From Exophiala sp. HKRS030 (lineage: Eukaryota > Ascomycota > Eurotiomycetes > Chaetothyriales > Herpotrichiellaceae), in NCBI GenBank assembly GCA_023897205.1, contig JAHWDD010000012.1:1054001-1118000 (forward strand): a stretch of 64,000 bases of DNA. Direction: 5' to 3'. Below the pieces are notes generated by a model. It ran no database searches. It saw nothing but the letters and a program-made list of their open reading frames with translations, and was not told where the DNA came from. Each line of letters opens with the position of its first letter. Position 1 is the first letter of the stretch. The position numbers and the translations under genes were made by a program. This document shows, piece after piece, positions 47,154 through 64,000 of this stretch.

Positions 47154-49172
47154 ATGTCTCAATACAACCAAATGTCAACATCTAACCTCGACATCCCATC
47201 CAATCAAATCAACCCTCTACTATCGCAATCGCGCAGTAGTCAACCATGGTCGCAGTCCTTTCAGGCAAGACCAAGCTTCTCATTATCTAGCTCCCTAGAC
47301 CCTCGAGGATTCTTCAGTCGAAGGTCTTCGACATCTTCTCATTCTGATGACGTTGATATTGAGAATCTACAGCTCAGTCTCGCGAATGTTGTCTCATTTA
47401 CCCCAGGCACTCCTTTCGATATAGCGCGTTCATACAACACCCTGTCCGAGCAACGGCCGAAGACGATTCAAAAACAACCTTTGCCTGCGAGTAAGCAACC
47501 AGTCTACGGTACTTTTGCCGATGAAGGTATTGAAGATGCGGAGCTACTAGAGTCAGACGACCTGAGCGATTCGAAGTTCATAGGCATAAGCCCAAGCGCT
47601 TCTGGCTTGTATTTGTCGTCATCATGTTGGGATATTTTATCGCTTGCTTCGACTCAACTCTGATGGCGTCAAGTCATCCTATCATCACTTCATATTTCGG
47701 GGCGTCACAAGCCGCATCCTGGTTGAGCACAGTCTTCCTTATCACGAGCACTGCTTTCCAACCCCTGTTCGGACGACTTTCCGACACAATAGGACGAAAA
47801 CCAGTCTTCATGCTCTCATTTGCGATCTTCGGGCTTACAACACTTTGGTGCGCAGTCGCTGGGAGCATTGAAAGTTTCATCGCGGCTCGTGCGGTGTGTG
47901 GACTTGGTGCTGGTGGCACGATGTCCATGAGTTTGATCATTGTGAGCGATCTGGTCCATATTGAACACCGTGGTGTATTCCAATCCCATATCAACCTTGC
48001 ATTTGGTCTCGGCTCTGCCTCAGGTGCAGCCCTGGGAGGCTGGCTTTGCGACTCCTTGGGGTGGCGATGGGCTTTTGGGATCCAGGTGCCATTCATCGCC
48101 GTATGTCTCATTATGGGACTTTTGTTCACACCTTCGGATCTTGGACCAATGTTAATCAACGCGGAGGGAGGCGGTGCTTGGATTGCACTGCGAAACTTCG
48201 ACTGGCTTGGTTCCATCTCTTTGATTACTTCCGTCACCTCACTCATCCTTTTCCTGAACCTTGGAGGAAACATCTTCCCGTGGTCATCTCCAGTCGTCAT
48301 TGCATGCTTCGTCTTGTTTGTGGTCGTCACATCTGCTTTTCTGTACATCGAGACTCGGGCAACACAGCCTCTTATGCCGCTCAGGCTGCTCTCCAAGGCG
48401 CCTATCTCAAATATGGTCTTTGCAAATCTCCTAGGAGCTATTGCCTCCAACACAGTGTTATTCAATGCTCCGTTGTTCTTCCAAGCGGTGTTACTGACAT
48501 CGGCTTCGAGCTCGGGCTTCCGCCTGGCCATTCCCAGTCTCATCGGATCCTTCGCTGGTATATCGACAGGTTTCATCATAACCTACACCCGGCGTTTGAA
48601 GCCGACTCTGGTCTTCGGAGCCGTACTGTACCTTATTGGATCTGTTGCAATATGTTTCATTTCAAAGGGAACATCTGAGGTCATGAGTATGATTCTGATC
48701 ACGGGTGTTCCGCTAGGCCAGGGATTTGTATTTCCGAACACCATGATGAGCGCTCTGGCGGTTTCTGAACAAGTCGACCAAGCCGTCGTGACGACAACGA
48801 TCGGCCTGTGGAGAAATCTAGGTGTTGTTTTGGGGGTCGCGCTTTCAAGTTTGGTCTTCCAGAACTCCTTGGCTGCCAGTCTTAGAGAGAGCGTGAGTGA
48901 TCCAGACGTCATCAAGAAAGTGAGGTCTTCTGTACAAGCAATTCGCTTTCTGGAGAAGACCCTGCAAGCACGAGGTAAGTGAACTCTCCGCCCATATGAA
49001 GCTCTGACTTGAAAGCTTACATCTCGCAGTGATTGACGCCTATGCAACGTCACTTCGGACAACGTTTTGGTGCGCCGTTGTGGCGTCAGTGCTTGTGGTG
49101 ATCCTTCTTGTTCCCGTCAAGTTACCACGGCTGCGAAAAGGAAGGCAAATGGTTGTCAGCGCTGGCGAGTAG
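47154..49172 (+). CDS. MFS transporter, Vba/Fnx1-like (vacuolar basic amino acid transporter family)
   Basis: Exons 47154-48974 and 49030-49172 (intron 48975-49029) give about 654 aa. A ~150-aa cytosolic Ser-rich N-terminus includes QPVYGTFADEGIEDAELLES. The DHA2-type MFS core follows: MLGYFIACFDSTLMASSHPI, QAASWLSTVFLITSTAFQPL, FGRLSDTIGRKPVF and the motif-C-like GLGSASGAALGGWLCDSLGW. The C-terminus ends in a last membrane helix and KLPRLRKGRQ. These match Fnx1/Vba vacuolar amino acid transporters. A single-base deficit at CCC 47591-47593 lies between KFIGIS and PKRFWLVFVV, just before TM1; one base restores frame and intron phase. The N-terminal choice 47154 is the first ATG. Confidence 0.85.
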
Positions 49173-50954: not shown

Positions 50955-53900
50955 ATGAGTGGAGGTTTGGCTAACCCAGATCTGGCTCAGGCGCCCGTGC
51001 CGGCTAGTGGTAAGCAAGAGTTATTTGACTGCACGAAAGGCCAACTTTGTTCTGATTTCAGTTCTCGTAGGAGATCCAGTGACCGAGAATGATCTCAAGC
51101 CACTATTCTTTCGCATCCTAGATATCATAAAAAGTCGCAAATTCTTTGACGAGGCCCCCACCTTTTTCGTCGTCTATGCTTGGGATAATGGCGGTCAAGA
51201 AGCAGGTTCGGACGTCGTGGTGGAGTTCATCGAGGCATGTCAACGCGCCGGATGCCGTATCACTTCAGATCAGGACCCGGCAGCTCGCGTGGTCACGGAA
51301 GAGCAACTCTGCTTGTTGCCTTTTGGTTTGCACAAGAATTCCGTTGAGCTTGTCGTCTTGTGCGGCTCTAACCTACTTGGTGGATACATGAAGGATGACA
51401 AAGTGCAACGATTCATTCAAGAAATGGCCGAGTGTTACGCCAAAGCTGAAGGTGACACCGCTAAACGCAAGGCTGTACTTGGGGTTTACGAAAAGTACTC
51501 AGGAGACCGCGATTTCCATCATGTTTATACAGAGATGGCGTTATTGAATATCAGGAGCGAGTTCTACGAAAGGAATTCCATCATTCCTTTCTTGCTCAAT
51601 GGGAATCATGAAGAAAACTTTCCGACATATCTCACTCAACATAAGAACATCCTGCGGACAGTGCTTGGACCAAAACCCGCAGGAGACGGATCCAAGTATG
51701 AGTGTTTTCTCCAAATACTGGAGAAATTTGCCGATCGCAGGACACGCGGTCCAGGCTCGGCACATTTAATCCAGTCATTAAGAAAAATATTCAGCCGTGC
51801 CGTTGATGAGCTTAGAAGTCAACCGTTCATGACAAAATCAGAGCTCGAGGCGTTTCTGCTTAGCCACAGAGACAAGGCCAATGATGCTTCTGATGAGTGG
51901 TCCAATTCTCAGTGGCTCCCTTCAACTGCTGGGATCAACAATTATCAGATTGAGGGCCGCTCAACTCGGAGGCTGAAGGTACTCAAAACACTACGCAGTG
52001 CATATCGAGATGGAAAGGACAGGAATCCCCAACGAGTTCAAGGAACATGTGAATGGTTCGTAAGCCACAGGTTTTTTCAACAATGGCAGAGAAGCGGCGT
52101 GTCAAGTATGTTATGGGTATCCGCGGACCCTGGTTGTGGAAAGTCCGTTCTGGCGAAACATCTAGTGGACGACGTGCTACCATCAAATGAGACCAGAAAA
52201 ACCTGTTATTTCTTCTTCAAGGAGGATTATGAGGATCAAAGAAGCGCTGTGAGTGCTCTCTGCTGCTTACTGCATCAACTATTTGAACAAAATGACAGCC
52301 TTCTCTCTGATAAGGTCATCGAAAAATTCGAGACCTCTGGGGAGCGGCTTACGACTTCGGTTAGCGAGCTTTGGAAGTTGTTGATCAATGCTTCGCGGGA
52401 GAGATCCGCCGGCGAAATTCTATGTGTCCTTGATGCATTCGATGAATGTGACGATCAAGGGCAGTTGGACATCACGCAAGCCTTGGTTAGCTTCTATGGT
52501 GCTGAGAATCACAACAAATTGAAATTCCTCATAACGAGTCGACCATATGGTTCGATCAGGCGAGGCTTTCAACCTCTCGATATGCCAGGGCTCCCGGTAA
52601 TTCACTTGAGTGGAGAGAGCGAAGAAGAGATGAAAAAGATTGCTAGTGAAATCGACATTTTCATCGAGGCCAGGGTTCGGAGCATCCGAGCGATCCTCAA
52701 ACTTAAACCCGAAGAGGAGCAATTGTTGAGAAAAGAGCTTTTGAACATTCCAAACCGAACTTATTTGTGGGTTCATCTTACCCTGGATCTTGTCCAAAAG
52801 GCCGTCAACATCGACGCAAAAGGAATTTCAGAGGTTGCATCACATCTTCCACGAAATGTGAATGAAGCCTACGACAAAATTCTGTCAAAGACTGACGATG
52901 TTGATGAAGCCAAGAAACTTCTGCATATCGTTGTTGTAGCAACAAGGCCATTAACTCTCAAGGAGATGTCATTCGCATTGACCATTCGAGAGAACAACCA
53001 CGGCTACAAAGACATTGACTTGAAATCAGAGGATCGATTCGCTGAATATGTACGAGATCTTTGTGGACTCTTTGTCACCATACAAAGCCAAAAGATATAT
53101 CTGCTGCACCAGACAGCAAAAGAATTTTTGGTATGGAAGGACTATCCAAATGCCGAAAATGGTCCCATTCCTAACCTAAAATGGAAATCGTTGCTTGTTC
53201 CACAAGAGTCTCATCGAGTACTTGCGGAAATTTGTCTGTGGCATTTGCTCTTCGCTGAATTCGATACTGAGCCTCTCACAACCTCAAACGTCACCCAATA
53301 CGTTCTCGACCACATCTTCCTTGATTATTCTGCCAAGAACTGGGCCACACATTTCCGCACGTCGGGTATCGCGGACGATGAAACCATAAAGTCGCTACTC
53401 AGGATTTGCGACGCAAGCTCTCGCCGTTGTCAGACCTGGTTCAATATTTTCTGGGAAAGCACATACGGAAGCTCTCCACAGCAATTCACAACCGTGATGA
53501 TTGCCTCCTACTTCGGACTAGAACGAGTAGTCACTGCCCTACTCAATGAGAAAGGTGTTGTCCTCAACTCCGTCGATGGTGTGCATTGCCGGTCAGCACT
53601 TTCTTGGGCCTCACAGAACGGTTTCAGTAATGTGGTGGGTCTTCTAATTAAAGGTCCGAAGATCTATCTCAGAGACTTTGCGAGACTCCGGTTTTGGAAA
53701 GGAGCTGAAGTCAATGCAAAGGACAAGTACGGTCGCACGCCTCTCTCGTATGCAGCTTGGAGTGGCCATATGGATGTTGTCCAGCAGTTGATCAAAGCAG
53801 GTGCACAAGCTGACTTAGCAGACGACATTGGCGGTACACCAATGTCATATGCTTTGCTCAGTGGACAAAATCGGATCTTAGAGCTGATGTTGACGAAAAT

Positions 53901-55611
53901 ACGCAAGACCAGTCTAGACGATAGCATCAGTGGGGATTTATTGCTGTCAGCTGCCCAAAAGGGCCATACAGATGTCGTGAAACTACTGTTGGATAGTGGT
54001 AAAGTCAACCCCAACTTGAAAGACACCTCAGGACGGACGTCATTGTCACTTGCTGCTGAGAATAGTCATGACGCTGTCGTCGAATTGTTACTCAGCTGCA
54101 ATAATGTGGATGTCAATTCAAGAGACCTGAGCGGTCGCACTCCACTGTCCTGGGCTACAGGGAGTGCCGTCGCCCATATGTTGCTCGAATTCAGCAAGAT
54201 CGACGCGGACTGTAAAGACGACTCCGGTCGAACGCCACTTTCGTGGGCTGCCCAAGCCGGTCATCGCGCTGTAGTCACAGCACTGCTAGAGACTAACCAA
54301 GTCGATGCTGACGGGAGGGATAACTTCGGCCGTACACCACTATCATGGGCTGCCCAGCATAGTGACTCTTCAATTGCTGAAGTATTACTCCGGCACAGCC
54401 AAGTCGACGTCGAGTCGAAAGACCTCTCCGGACGCACACCACTGTCTTGGGCTACAGAGAACGAGGATACGAGCATTCTGAAAATGTTACTCGAGCATAG
54501 CAAAGTCAATGCTGATTCCCGGGATAACTCTGGTCGCACACCACTGTCTTGGGCCGCAGAAAGAGGCATTGATACTGTAATGGAAATCCTAATTGGGCAC
54601 GATCAGATCAATGTGGAATCGAAAGATGAGAGTGGCCGGACGCCACTCTCATGGATAGCCGAGAACGTGGAAGCAGGCTTGGTATCTCGACCCCTTCTCG
54701 GGAGACGCGACATCTATCCTGATTTGGAGGATCAATCTGGCCGCACACCGCTATCCTGGGCCGCCGAGAAGGGCAAGACTGACTTTGTTGAAGCCTTACT
54801 TATCAGTGGCCGTGCCGATCCCAATTCAAGGGATATTTCAGGCCAAACACCATTGGCGTGGGCTTTCCGGAAGACCCAATGGGATGTGGTCAGGCAAATT
54901 GTCGACTTTCGTGGAACGGACGTGACCTCGAATGGTAAAACAAAGGGCTTGATAATTCTAGAGAACAAGCTTGATGAAACAATAAGCGTCAGGGAGGTGG
55001 GCAATGACAGCCTGATGACACTGGGCAAAGGAGAGATCAACGCCATGCACCAGAGCACTGAGAAAAAGCAACTATGTCTCTGCTACCCCGGTCCAGGAAA
55101 TCAATGGACGTCACCTTTCACCGGTGACACCGGCTTCACACATGTGAAGATTGCCAAGGCAGGGCGTAGGCAGCATCTTATCCGAGTGGATGTTTCGCTA
55201 CTGGAAGATGTTGGTGCCTTTATCCAGCTCAGCCCAGAAAAGGAAGCCTGGCCGTTCTTGATCCGCAACGAGAGCCACGTCGAGTTCATTTTCTGGCAGT
55301 CAAATCCGCAATTGAACGGCGATGACAGCTTTCGGCCGATCAGATTTCGACTTCCGCCCCGAAGCATCATGCCATACTCCTGGGATTATACTACCGCAAA
55401 AAACAAAGAGCTCGTGCTCTCCGCGCAAGGAGTCGAGCGGAATGTGAAGCTCGACGAGCCTGGCTCATTAGTCCCACTCCGTGTCAATTCGCCATCTGGC
55501 TCTGGCGAGAGGACTGTCATCGATATTGCGGTCGTTGCAGACGGCCCTAGTATGACGCTAGTTTTGAGTACATTCAAGCCTGGGAGAGTTGCAAAACAAT
55601 CGAAACGGTAG
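50955..55611 (+). CDS. NLR-like STAND protein: TIR/SEFIR-like - NACHT - ankyrin - VPS13 SHR-BD-like
   Basis: Exons 50955-51009 and 51062-55611 (intron GTAAGC...TTTCAG) give about 1534 aa with no frame break. Residues ~20-230 look TIR/SEFIR-like: FFVVYAWDNG, then GCRITSDQDP and VELVVLCGSNLL, ending at RNSIIPFLLNG. A NACHT NTPase follows: Walker A SADPGCGKSVLAKH (about 370), Walker B EILCVLDAFDECDD (about 470), then ITSRPYGSI and a helical/winged-helix region with LHQTAKEFLVW. About 13 ankyrin repeats cover residues ~826-1305, many near-identical (SGRTPLSWAA). The C-terminal ~210 aa (54970-55600) match the VPS13 SHR-BD/VAB-side pattern: LCYPGPGNQWTSPF, WPFLIRNESHVEFIFWQSNP, RFRLPPRSIMPYSWD, KNKELVLSAQG and DIAVVADGPSMTLVLS. 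The first three parts are typical of fungal heterokaryon-incompatibility/immune-like receptors. The last is unexpected and suggests a decoy or lipid/membrane-linked output. Confidence 0.85.
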
Positions 55612-58062: not shown

Positions 58063-61000
58063 TTACCCGAACGCTGGATATTCAGACTTGATATACTGGC
58101 TGGTGTCATCCGGGACATGGCTCGTGATTTTGGCCATCCCACGCTTCCTGACCTGTAATTTCTGTATATCTTCTTCCACAGTACCCCGAACAATGTATCG
58201 TGTCACATGGACCGCTTTTTGCTGGCCAATACGAATCGATCGCCCTATCGCTTGTTCCTCCACGCTAGGGTTCCATTGAGGTTCGACCAGGAACACTCGA
58301 TTTGCGGCGATGATGTTCAAGCCAAACGCTCCAACACCTGTGGTCATGATCAAGGTCGATATACGTGGATCGTTTTGGAATCGATCCAGGACTTCTGGCG
58401 GTGAGAGATGCCATAATCTCCATCAATCCGATTGAACGTGATCTTCTTACGTTGGAAATGGAGACCTATCAGATCCAAAGTTGTCGTCCAACAGGAAAAC
58501 ACAATGCTCTTGTCACCAGCGGCAGCAGCCGCTAAGACATCTGTGACAAGAGCGTCCATTTTTTGGGATTGTCCATGTGTGCGGAAATAGTCCTGGTGTG
58601 AGCCTGAAGACGAAATGTTCTTCGTGGCATGACGTTGCGTGGAGCCTAGAGTCTCCGCACACAAGGCGCAAGTACCGTCAGTTCCTTCTTTGCAATCTGC
58701 GCACCAGACATGTGCACAAGTTGCCAGTTGCCCAAAAATCCGATCCGTGAAGATGCTGGGCATCATTTGATTGCATCCCGAACACATGCTTTCAAGACCG
58801 CCATCTGCAGACGTAAAAGCATCTTCCTTAGCATCGCGAGAATTCCGGCTCTGGGCCCAGTGAAATTGATGTTGGAAGGTACCGTGATTGCAAAGAAGAC
58901 GTAGCTGGAGTTGAGCCTGAAACATACTCATTCTGTTTCTGTTTTCGTAATTTCCAGCGAGGTTCTGCAACGCTCTTTTCATGTCCTCTTTTGTTTTTTC
59001 GTACTGACGTCGTTCCTCCGGTGAGATCTCGATAGTGTGTGTCGTCTCGAGAGGCATGGCAAGGTCCAAATGGCCTTTCGTTCGCCTTATGCCCATTGAG
59101 TCGAACAGCGTCACAAGGTTATTTTGCCCTTCTAATCGTCTGCTCCCGCCTTCACTAAAAGGAACCGATATGTATTTCCGAAAGACGCCTAACCGATCGA
59201 ACGGGTATAGTTTAAGGAAAGAGAACAACGAGCCAACCTCATCAAGGTTGTTTTGGATTGGTGTTCCCGTAAGACACCACCGAAACTTCGCGTCAAGTTC
59301 AGCAACGCGCTTGTGTAGAACAGTAGTCATTCTGCGTATTACGTGTGCCTCGTCCAGGACAATGCGGTACCATACAACGTCGGTCGCGGGCCTTGACCTT
59401 GTGTGCTCTGCGGCAAGAGTGTGATACGTTGTGAGAACAATGTCGTGGTCCGCTAAAACAGCAGGATCGCGAGGTCTGCCGGTGCCGTGGTGAACCAAAA
59501 CCTTGAGTGAGAGGTCCGTACGAAGACGTATCTCGTCATCCCAGGCTCTCAACAGAAGTGGGTTGGGTACAATCACTAGTGTCGCTCTTGATAGAATCTT
59601 CGTCGGAAGAATGTCTTCTTTGACATGTGTAGCAGGATCCATGGCCCATCTCGTTGCGTTCATGAGGCTACTGATCACCAAAGCAATCATAGAATAGGTC
59701 TTCCCCATCCCCATCTCGTCTGCTAAGATGCCGCCACCAATCTCTGAGGGCAGCGTTTGGCTTCTGAAGCCTGTGATCTTGTGGCGGAACCCAGAGTCTG
59801 GGGAGGTTGGAGCAGGCTCCCATAACCGGAAATTCTCTGGCACAGGACCGATCTCTCTCTGCAACATAAATTCAACAGCTTTGGCTTGATGAGGTAGCAG
59901 AGATGTTCGAAGACGGTCAACATGGGCGATCCCCTCAAGGTGAGAGTCTCGTTTGAGCTGTGAGTACACATCTTGTATGGAATCTCGAAAGCTGGTAACT
60001 CTGTCTTGCGGCTCAACCAAGATTGGTATTACTGCATCATTCAGTGCTTGGGTAAATTCGAACTTGATCACATGCGGATTGTCATAAACCGAGTTCGGAC
60101 TCAGCCAGTCTGGTCTCTGAAGCCAGATTTTCTTTGCCGAGAATTCACGCCCTATGGAGTTCTGTCTTATCTTCGGACCGTAAACGTTGATGTTGATTGT
60201 GGTCCGTGCAGCGCCCGCTTTGGACGCAGCACCTATATCCCTAGATGAAGAAGTCAAAACTCGGAAGCTAGGGTGTCTGAAGGTTTTAGGACAATACTCC
60301 GTAGTGCTAGGATGATTTGTGGTCGATCATTATGCGACTTACTCGAATATGCTCCTAGCGTGGACTAAAGCTTCAAGCCGAATGCTTTGCGACCTCAAAG
60401 GATCAATCAGAGCCTCGGTCAAATGAAGGTTTAGCCGTGCGATGTTGATGCTCTCTGGAATGCAGACGAAGAGGTCATCATCAACAACTTTAATGCCTAG
60501 GACGAAGTGGGTTTGTCCTTTAGGCATGTAAGTTCTGAGATGTCGACTGACTTCAGACATGTTCCCATGGAGTAGGGCTTGCACCCGGTAGATCTTCCAA
60601 CATGGAGTGATTTAGCATGGAGAGGTGAGACAATAAGCCGAGAACGATATTGGAGCACATGGACTCACCATGCCATAGCACAAATCCGATTTTACACCGG
60701 ATTGATCCACCTTGTTGATCACGCCCATGTGTGGGTCGTCCACATTGCCGAAATCATGGATCCCCAGATCTGCAGAGAACCACGACTCGATATCCTGTTG
60801 AGCATCATTGACTTCTGAAAGGACGGGAAGATCCCAGAAGCCTTCAAAATTCTTCTGCTCGGTGAATTCGTCGTTGAGTGTCGGTAAACCTCCAATCAGC
60901 TCTTCCCAGGCACTGTTCCAGTCGCAAGAGCTGGAAGCAGCCTGAGTCTCTCCATGCTGGAGACTTGAAAACCAGGAAGATGATCCCCCGAAAGATTGGA

Positions 61001-61705: not shown

Positions 61706-64000
61706 ATGGCTACTGCGGCACAGAACAACAACCCTCCTCCCGACGCATTTCAGACTGCATTCAAGAAGTTCGAAGCGCGACTCAGCGACAAGGAGAGACG
61801 AAAATTCAAGTGTGCATCACGTCAAGATGTGGAGACAGCCCTTGCAGATATTCAGACTCGCCAGGAAGTGCAACGAGATCTGCGTAATTTGACGAGGATT
61901 CGTGGCTTTCTGGAGGCCATGGATCAGTTTGGCAGAGTTATCGAAGTCTTCACGAATACAAACGATTTTGTGGCGTTCGTTTGGGGCCCTTTGAAATTCC
62001 TACTGCAAGTTTCGAGCAACTGGGCAAATGCCCTAGACACGATTTTAGATGCCTACGAGCAGATTGGTGAAGCATTGCCTCTCTTGCAGCAATACGAGTC
62101 ACTCTTTCAACAGCATCCCGAGATGCAAAAAGTGCTTGTTCTGATATATATTGACATTCTCGATTTTCATCAGCGCGCAATTCGTTTCTTTGATCATCCT
62201 AGTAAGCATTTAGAGCTTTTCATATCACGTTCCAACTAACGGGTGCCGTAGCCTGGCGCCAGATGTTTCGGTCGGTTTGGGCCGATTACAAGATTCGATT
62301 CGGACAAACTCTGAAGAATTTTGAGAGACACGCAGAACTTATTCAATCCCAATTCATTCTCCTCCAGTCTCGCCAGCAGTCAGTTGATAGGAGTCAGATT
62401 ATTGAAGGGATCAACAAATTGCAATCCAATCTCGACCAGGTGCAACAATCTCTCAAGGTCCAAGAAGACAACCGCAGAACCGAGCAAGTACGTTGTATCC
62501 GAGAGTGGTTGGCTGGATCTGCCTCATCGACCTACCACGAGGTAGCCGAGAGAGCTCGTGAGGACTTCGGCAAGACGGGATTTTGGATTATCAACTCTCC
62601 AGAGATATCGCAATGGCTCAACGATGACCTTCCTCCCAAATCAACAGTGTGGATGCATGGTATTCCAGGGCAGGTGGGTGAAGGCCGACGTATGTTTATA
62701 GCCCTACTGACAAGGACTCCCAGGCAAGACAGTTTTAGCCTCGATCATCGTCAACGCTTGCAAAGAACGACAGCAAGACCGAATAGCATACTTTTATTGC
62801 AGGCACGATGATGATAGTACGACTTCGTGTGTCAACATCTTGAAAGGGTTGTTGACTCAACAGGTAGGATGGTATCCAAACCTCGTTCCTTTCTTCAACG
62901 AACAACGAGAAGAAAAAGGCGAAGTGGTTTTGAGATCGGAGAAGACGGCAAAGACTCTCTTGAGGGCTGTTTCTGAAGAGGGTGATCGCCAATTCATTGT
63001 CATCGATGGCCTAGACGAATGTCTACCTCAGGAACGAAAATCGATCTTGACATTCCTCCAGTCTCTGGTTGAGAAGATCGATGACAGAGAGCCTTCGAAA
63101 CTGCGCTTGCTCATCATCAGCCAGGACGAGTTTGACATTAGGAAGCTACTGTCGGGGCAAAAGAATTCAGAATTCAGGCCACACATAACGCTGCTGACAT
63201 TGACTTTTTTGTTCAAACGTGGACGAAGATAATAAGATCCAAATTCGACCTCGATGAGGGTATCTCAGATTACATCCAAAGGCAGACATGTACAGCTGCC
63301 GCCGGTGGGTTGATTATCCCTAATTGATCAGTCTTTTACTGAGACCACAGCCTAGGTCAATTCTTATTTGCCAAGTTAGTCATGGAGAACTTGTATGGCC
63401 AGGCCAACCGTGAAATGCTCGAAGTTGAGATGCAAGAATCACGTTTCCCAAAGGAACTGGCAGAAGCGTGAGTCTAGAGCTTCCAAGATTCATGCCAGTT
63501 GTTGAGATCACCTTGGGACTGACCTGGTTTGGATCTTAGATATGATCGTATTATTGAACGCGTCAAGGTAAGCCTGAGTGGCCACGAATGGGACGTTGCT
63601 CAGAAGCTTCTTGGTTGGATGACATGCGCGATACGTCCGCTGAAGTGGCACGAAATGCAAGGGGCAATGTCCATCGACATGGATAAGAGCAACGTCGACT
63701 TTGAGGGTCGTCAAGCCCGGCGGCATGCACTTGAGCTGTGTGGGTCTTTGGTGATTGAACATCAAAACCGGCTTTGTCTTGTTCATGGCACTGCTAGGAG
63801 GTAAGGCTCTGTGAAGTCTTGGATAGATCTTGGGAAAAGCCAAACTTTGTGGCCTGGATTGAATGGATATCGCGCTGACGATTCTAGGCATATCATGGAG
63901 TCGAGCCACATCGACATTTTCGTCGTTCAATGCAAGCTTGCGGAACTCTGCTTGCAATACATTACCTTTCCTTGCTTTGACCCAGACAATAGCGCGGAGG
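61706..64000 (+). CDS. NLR-like protein 2: DUF7708 - NACHT (3' end outside window)
   Basis: Exons 61706-62201, 62252-62673, 62724-63304, 63356-63467, 63540-63800 and 63888-64000+. The N-terminal DUF7708-like domain has FEARLSDKERRKF, FTNTNDFVAFVWGPLKFLLQ and WANALDTILDAYEQIGEALP. A NACHT domain follows with Walker A GIPG-GKT split by an intron, Walker B FIVIDGLDECLP and the LLIISQDEFDI sensor-like segment. After it comes a winged-helix-like part (WMTCAIRPLKWHEMQGAMSI, a motif common in these proteins) leading into the missing C-terminus. Two single-base deficits occur, at GGG 62668-62670 in the Walker A and near 63184-63190; one added base at each closes every exon phase. NLR-like genes are often pseudogenes, so here the frameshifts could be real. 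I still favour error because the same signature hits essential genes. Confidence 0.75.

Follow-up and report, generated by a model that had tools for sequence, protein, structure and literature searches.

Fungal NOD-like receptors (NLRs) that end in a piece of a conserved cellular protein have been described in the Sordariales, where T-NACHT NLRs carry a C-terminal CHK2/PRD-4-like kinase as a putative integrated decoy (PMC12258605). A second relevant system is the lipid-transfer protein Vps13, whose VAB domain recognises adaptors through their PxP motifs. Repeats 5-6 of this domain are reported to suffice for adaptor binding (PMC7999203, PMC8978259). We studied a window of 64,000 nucleotides from Exophiala sp. 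HKRS030 (assembly GCA_023897205.1, contig JAHWDD010000012.1, positions 1,054,001 to 1,118,000, forward strand), and found at its positions 50955-55611 a gene for a NACHT-ankyrin NLR that ends in Vps13 VAB repeats 5-6. Few ligands of fungal NLRs are known.

A Vps13 module at the end of the receptor

The Vps13-derived tail comprises ~221 residues, starting at 54946 (residue 1314). It matches the Pfam family VPS13_VAB (PF25036) with an E-value of 2.7e-38 and 132 bits (cut-off 22.6) over 54955-55401, which corresponds to model positions 415-569 of 570. With tblastn, the tail matches the two Vps13 genes of the source genome at 46% over 227 amino acids and 47% over 228 amino acids. It also matches the solved C. 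thermophilum VAB fused with the PxP motif of Mcp1 (PDB 7u8t), and its predicted structure is a confident two-module fold that agrees with Vps13 across both repeats. The similarity is far beyond chance. Profile, comparison with the solved structure and predicted fold confirm that this NLR gained a piece of Vps13 and that its C-terminus carries VAB repeats 5-6.

The original prediction, made from the sequence alone, had described a NACHT-ankyrin protein in one unbroken frame with a C-terminal tail from Vps13. The frame is indeed unbroken, and all five motifs that it quoted, including KNKELVLSAQG, occur in the translation. The profile search and structure comparison that it proposed gave the VPS13_VAB match and the agreement in fold described above. 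Pfam and tblastn bear out the identity of the tail, with two small corrections: it is ~221 residues long instead of ~210, and it comprises VAB repeats 5-6 only. The gain of a Vps13 piece thus stands, whereas the functions attached to it, a decoy or a membrane-directed output, stay conditional.

Judged from its sequence, the protein is not itself a VPS13 protein, as it lacks the chorein N-terminus and the earlier VAB repeats. No chorein or further Vps13 Pfam match was found at an E-value of 1 in the 1407-amino-acid frame described below, and two Vps13 queries (P0001 and P0034) gave no further match in the window at an E-value of 0.1. We also considered a longer Vps13 remnant past the stop codon, but this amounted to merely ~11 more codons in a doubtful alignment with one query.

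Gene structure and receptor core

The open frame on the + strand (50959-55611) has 1550 codons, and its earliest in-frame ATG, at 51388, would yield 1407 amino acids. Splicing a short exon 1 over a putative 52-base GT..AG intron would instead give a protein of 1534 amino acids, which matches the length in the original prediction. The top match of this protein among those listed is P0092 of Paramyrothecium foliicola (Hypocreales, Stachybotryaceae). We favour the upstream start because homology to P0092 begins before the ATG at 51388, namely at residue 26 of the 1534-amino-acid model. The predicted gene has the following features.

50955-51009, + strand: exon 1 (18 codons plus 1 base, ATG start), from the in-frame splice and P0092 homology upstream of 51388
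51010-51061, + strand: putative intron of 52 bases, GTAAGC...TTTCAG, as read from the sequence
51062-55611, + strand: exon 2, the remaining coding sequence (stop codon 55609-55611), an open frame collinear with P0092
51064-51726, + strand: N-terminal domain, probably a SEFIR/TIR-like effector, from fold comparison and a conserved Glu
51532-51534, + strand: conserved Glu, residue 176, in an HHVxTE motif, invariant in 4/4 N-termini
52042-52542, + strand: NACHT NTPase core (NPHP3_N/NACHT) with Walker A ADPGCGKS and Walker B LDAFDE, from Pfam and located motifs
52909-53139, + strand: winged-helix domain (GPIID_WHD), Pfam E-value 9.5e-9
53500-54921, + strand: ankyrin repeat array, from Pfam, with approximate limits judged from the translation
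54946-55608, + strand: Vps13 VAB repeats 5-6, the PxP-adaptor-binding fragment, from profile, solved structure and predicted fold

The core has the layout of a fungal NACHT-type NLR, with a central NTPase that has both Walker motifs and with C-terminal ankyrin (ANK) repeats. Pfam matches support the NACHT core (NPHP3_N, E-value 7e-41; NACHT, 5.6e-8) and the ankyrin array (Ank_2, 8.4e-73; Ank, 1.6e-61). NCBIfam matches to Dot/Icm Ank effectors were far under their cut-offs and reflect generic ankyrin similarity.

A second fusion protein

P0092 was the top match in a search with residues 1-700 (E-value 7.6e-244). It is collinear with the Exophiala NLR, at 47% over 1564 alignment positions, and has the N-terminal domain, NACHT, winged-helix domain, ANK repeats and VAB tail in the same order. 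The junction between the last ankyrin repeat and the VAB is the same in both proteins, and in both the stop codon comes shortly past the last VAB strand. P0092 has its own VPS13_VAB match (E-value 1.2e-23). Given the shared junction and the unbroken frame, it is less likely that the two parts of the Exophiala protein are separate genes or an assembly join. P0092 differs in that its tail is further from Vps13 and its record has a GH43 part upstream. This public record, of 2265 amino acids, is named GH43 arabinofuranosidase; residues 1-570 are the GH43 part, and the whole NLR-VAB protein lies inside the record. It is probable that annotation merged two genes.

The two tails probably go back to a single fusion event. 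Across 93 Vps13 rows, 73 alignment columns are near-invariant (at least 95% one residue), and the Exophiala and P0092 tails keep 55/73 and 41/73 of them, respectively. Eleven of these columns are replaced in both tails without gaps, five of them by the same new residue, a number reached by 8 of 20000 shuffles; one of the five shared residues is also present in 4 Vps13 rows. These shared replacements, together with the shared junction, favour one event over independent fusions. In a maximum-likelihood tree, a clade of the two tails, which have very long branches, is neither shown nor rejected (p-AU 0.567). This tree used 66 of 95 rows. A row was left out if its identity to a retained row was 90% or more, and this applied to one of the two Vps13 copies of the source genome, Vps13B.

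We also considered a recent copy of one of the fungus's own Vps13 genes. Identity between the tail and each copy is only 49%, and no grouping with Vps13A appears in the free tree. The constrained trees are not decisive, however: holding the tail with Vps13A is worse by 16.5 log units (p-AU 0.051), and holding it with Vps13A, P0073 and P0077 is worse by 12.8 log units (p-AU 0.105). The source genome has no further copy of the tail beyond the two Vps13 genes (3 matches).

The search of fungal proteins for NACHT-ANK-Vps13 fusions, as the original prediction had suggested, yielded one relative, P0092, among the matches listed. The NLR search scored the 7988 candidates that share most words, and the best 120 of its 1752 matches were used. 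VPS13_VAB occurs in one of these 120, namely P0092 (the family list of P0211 is partial). When the tail region served as the query, 91 of 688 candidates matched, all of them listing PF25036 and none listing ANK or NACHT families. P0092 is absent from these matches, which points to limited sensitivity, and the fusion is not shown to be confined to two fungi.

The N-terminal domain

The N-terminal domain is probably a SEFIR/TIR-like effector domain, as judged from a weak predicted model (pLDDT 69, built on 4 sequences). The top two rows of the fold comparison are an IL-17R/ACT1 assembly and TIR-APAZ, and Foldseek gave no match at an E-value of 0.001. By comparison with TIR motifs, Glu 176 may be a catalytic glutamate. 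The domain has no Pfam match, and a profile of four N-termini against PDB sequences gave no TIR or SEFIR among its 3 rows. The best of these, 7on1_C (E-value 0.005), was judged spurious.

Searching with this domain gave 3 matches from 1583 candidates, one of which has the VAB. Another protein, P0212, is a NACHT-HEAT NLR of Polytolypa hystricis (Onygenales). Its N-terminal ~240 residues match the Exophiala domain at 49% identity, but it has another NACHT and HEAT repeats instead of ANK; VAB is neither among the matches listed for it (25 of 40 Pfam families) nor in the precomputed list. An effector-like domain lacking a Pfam entry therefore occurs on unlike NACHT receptors in distant fungi, and appears to move between receptor types.

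Vps13 and adaptor genes of the source genome

The source genome has two Vps13 genes, at G000:C8:1185869-1187596 (+) and C8:2560969-2562695 (-) (L001, L002, L004). They share 90.5% protein identity over VAB repeats 5-6 and 75% DNA identity over 4.3 kb. In the second gene, the VAB is spread over two open frames, indicating an intron or a frameshift. There are also two Mcp1 genes, at G000:C1:1396513-1396845 (L028) and C1:6297608-6297940 (L029), and both matches are above the PF07950 cut-off. Adaptor and lipid-transfer protein are thus both duplicated in this fungus. The Mcp1 N-termini bear the PxP motifs VPMHEVDPSPVD and VPMYEVEPSPVD, which are similar to the C. thermophilum PxP peptide LVELDPAPIAE (PMC8978259). 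A genome-wide search with a DNA pattern for PxP codons was uninformative, as the pattern is far too common.

Retention of the PxP site and its interpretation

In C. thermophilum Vps13, R2489, L2554, I2559 and M2560 were mutated jointly, and N2521 singly (PMC8978259). By alignment with that protein, the counterparts of these residues in the Exophiala NLR are as follows.

55168-55170, + strand: Arg 1388, equivalent to R2489 of the PxP site
55267-55269, + strand: Asn 1421, equivalent to N2521, the conserved Asn of repeat 6
55351-55371, + strand: LPPRSIM, in which Leu 1449, Ile 1454 and Met 1455 are equivalent to L2554, I2559 and M2560 of the PxP site

All five published PxP-site residues are retained in both NLR tails. 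As both tails keep 36 of the 73 near-invariant columns, the chance of retaining five of five is 0.025. The segment PIRFRLPPRSIMPYSWDYTT, which contains 3 of the 4 jointly tested binding residues, is 85% identical (17/20) between the two tails, as against 39% for the whole tail, and no 20-residue stretch lying wholly outside it exceeds 50%. LPPRSIM lies within the best-conserved segment of a tail that, by this comparison, evolves fast yet preserves PIRFRLPPRSIMPYSWDYTT.

This pattern bears on whether the tail has a function. An accidental, non-functional read-in of Vps13 at the end of an NLR gene would fit two observations: the tail is the least conserved part of the protein, and P0092 has lost 32 of the 73 near-invariant columns. 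Against it stand the open frame, whose junction and end are shared by two fungi, the confidently predicted two-module fold, the selective retention of the PxP segment and the stop codon, which in each protein follows soon on the last VAB strand. We regard such a read-in as very improbable. The strong divergence outside the PxP segment could also suit a heterokaryon incompatibility locus, at which the tail would read allelic variants of adaptors or Vps13 partners at hyphal fusion. Self/non-self recognition is an established role for some fungal NLRs (PMC9815663). In the DNA of the ankyrin part (53000-55000), no tandem repeat was detected, whereas known recognition NLRs carry near-identical repeats, and this role seems improbable here.

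The shared fusion in a second fungus suggests that the receptor uses the Vps13 piece as a bait or an anchor. With moderate confidence, we favour the reading that a NACHT-ankyrin NLR whose N-terminus is probably SEFIR/TIR-like has integrated a Vps13 module that serves in this way. The tail would bind PxP peptides and thereby tether the receptor to the PxP adaptors of contact sites. Alternatively, it could act as a mimic of Vps13 on which a PxP-like or Vps13-directed protein of an invader docks, or the receptor could sense changed adaptor occupancy. This would free the NACHT to oligomerise. The N-terminal domains would then be brought together, and cell death would follow through TIR/SEFIR signalling, of the NADase type or another. 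In a more specific version, which we offer only tentatively, the NLR is wired to the contact-site adaptor code: its PxP groove would rival Vps13 for Mcp1/Ypt35-type adaptors, with TIR/SEFIR-like output upon adaptor mimicry, exposure or loss.

Two other functions compete with a bait or anchor on PxP adaptors. The beta-sandwich modules might bind membrane and bring the activated receptor there. However, the VAB is reported not to bind liposomes (PMC8978259) and the adaptor site is intact, so a bait or anchor is favoured over direct lipid binding, which we consider the least probable explanation. In a strict decoy of the plant kind, Vps13 repeats 5-6 would be the target of proteins from pathogens or mycoviruses, and the copy in the NLR would be bait only, with no need to bind the fungus's own adaptors. 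The source genome does encode homologues of the presumed target, the Sordariales kinase was proposed as such a decoy (PMC12258605), and recognition of the glycolipid transfer protein HET-C by HET-E is a fungal NLR precedent (PMC9815663). On the other hand, retention of the adaptor site suits binding of own adaptors just as well, and no pathogen protein acting on fungal Vps13 was found in the literature among the matches listed, judged by title and start of abstract. A strict decoy is therefore unlikely, if far from negligible.

Several observations weigh against a bait or anchor on PxP adaptors. The PxP residues are near-invariant across Vps13, so they may be retained partly for the fold, and PIRFRLPPRSIMPYSWDYTT is very constant in Vps13 itself, which calls for caution in reading its conservation as binding. 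For the C. thermophilum VAB, AlphaFold reportedly misses the groove that separates repeat 5 from repeat 6 (PMC8978259), and the model of our tail is therefore no test of this groove. The tails, at 39% identity, are the lowest of eight protein parts (41% for residues 712-840, 46% for ANK, 56% for the N-terminal domain, 64% for NACHT), while Vps13 repeats 5-6 have a median identity among themselves of 67% and a minimum of 52.5%. This low conservation may also reflect loosened constraint, and the P0092 tail keeps only 41 of the 73 near-invariant columns. The N-terminal model is weak and has no match at the Foldseek threshold given above. Finally, the searches gave only two fusion proteins, whose relationship is judged from their alignment.

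Genomic surroundings

The neighbours of the NLR gene in the window encode an MFS transporter (47624-48979), an anthrone-oxygenase-like protein (PF08592; 56617-57342) and a SNF2-type ATPase (58353-59867). About 8 kb downstream, window positions 63583-64000 plus 80 bases further (G000:C12:1117583-1118080) resemble the part of the NLR after the NACHT, around the winged helix (query residues 503-658, E-value 3.8e-4), with one in-frame TAA.

Comparison with known systems

The original prediction knew of no described fungal NLR of this kind. This holds in the literature searched (open-licence papers, by title and abstract), which has no report of a fungal NLR with VPS13 or of VPS13 in heterokaryon incompatibility, but an unrecognised copy was already public as the GH43-named P0092. 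Two surveys of NLRs, one of them PMC9815663, do not use the word VPS13 in their main text. The supplementary tables of PMC12258605 list 185 non-canonical NLR domains, among which VPS13 may occur.

If the proposed function is correct, it would tie innate immunity to the bulk movement of lipids at membrane contact sites. The receptor carries a ready-made peptide-binding site of understood structure, for which the ligand class (PxP motifs) and the key mutations have been published, so that peptides and point mutants could directly test what a fungal NLR senses. Alongside the CHK2-like kinase, the Exophiala gene would also be the second example of a domain captured by fungal NLRs, and the one with the clearer mechanism.

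TIR-like N-termini that resemble SEFIR have been described in Pezizomycotina NLRs (PMC9815663), and the Exophiala N-terminus may be like them, to judge by its best two fold rows. The tail is the same module as VAB repeats 5-6 of fungal Vps13 (PDB 7u8t, PF25036), except that it is joined to an NLR. As expected for an integrated domain, the homologue of a cellular protein is fused in frame, and the fusion is kept in a second fungus (two proteins). The Sordariales CHK2/PRD-4-like NLRs are the closest parallel, as they too are complete NLRs with a domain of a conserved cellular protein at the C-terminus, apparently from one fusion (PMC12258605). They differ in what was integrated, which is a kinase in the Sordariales and the adaptor-binding module of Vps13 in Exophiala.
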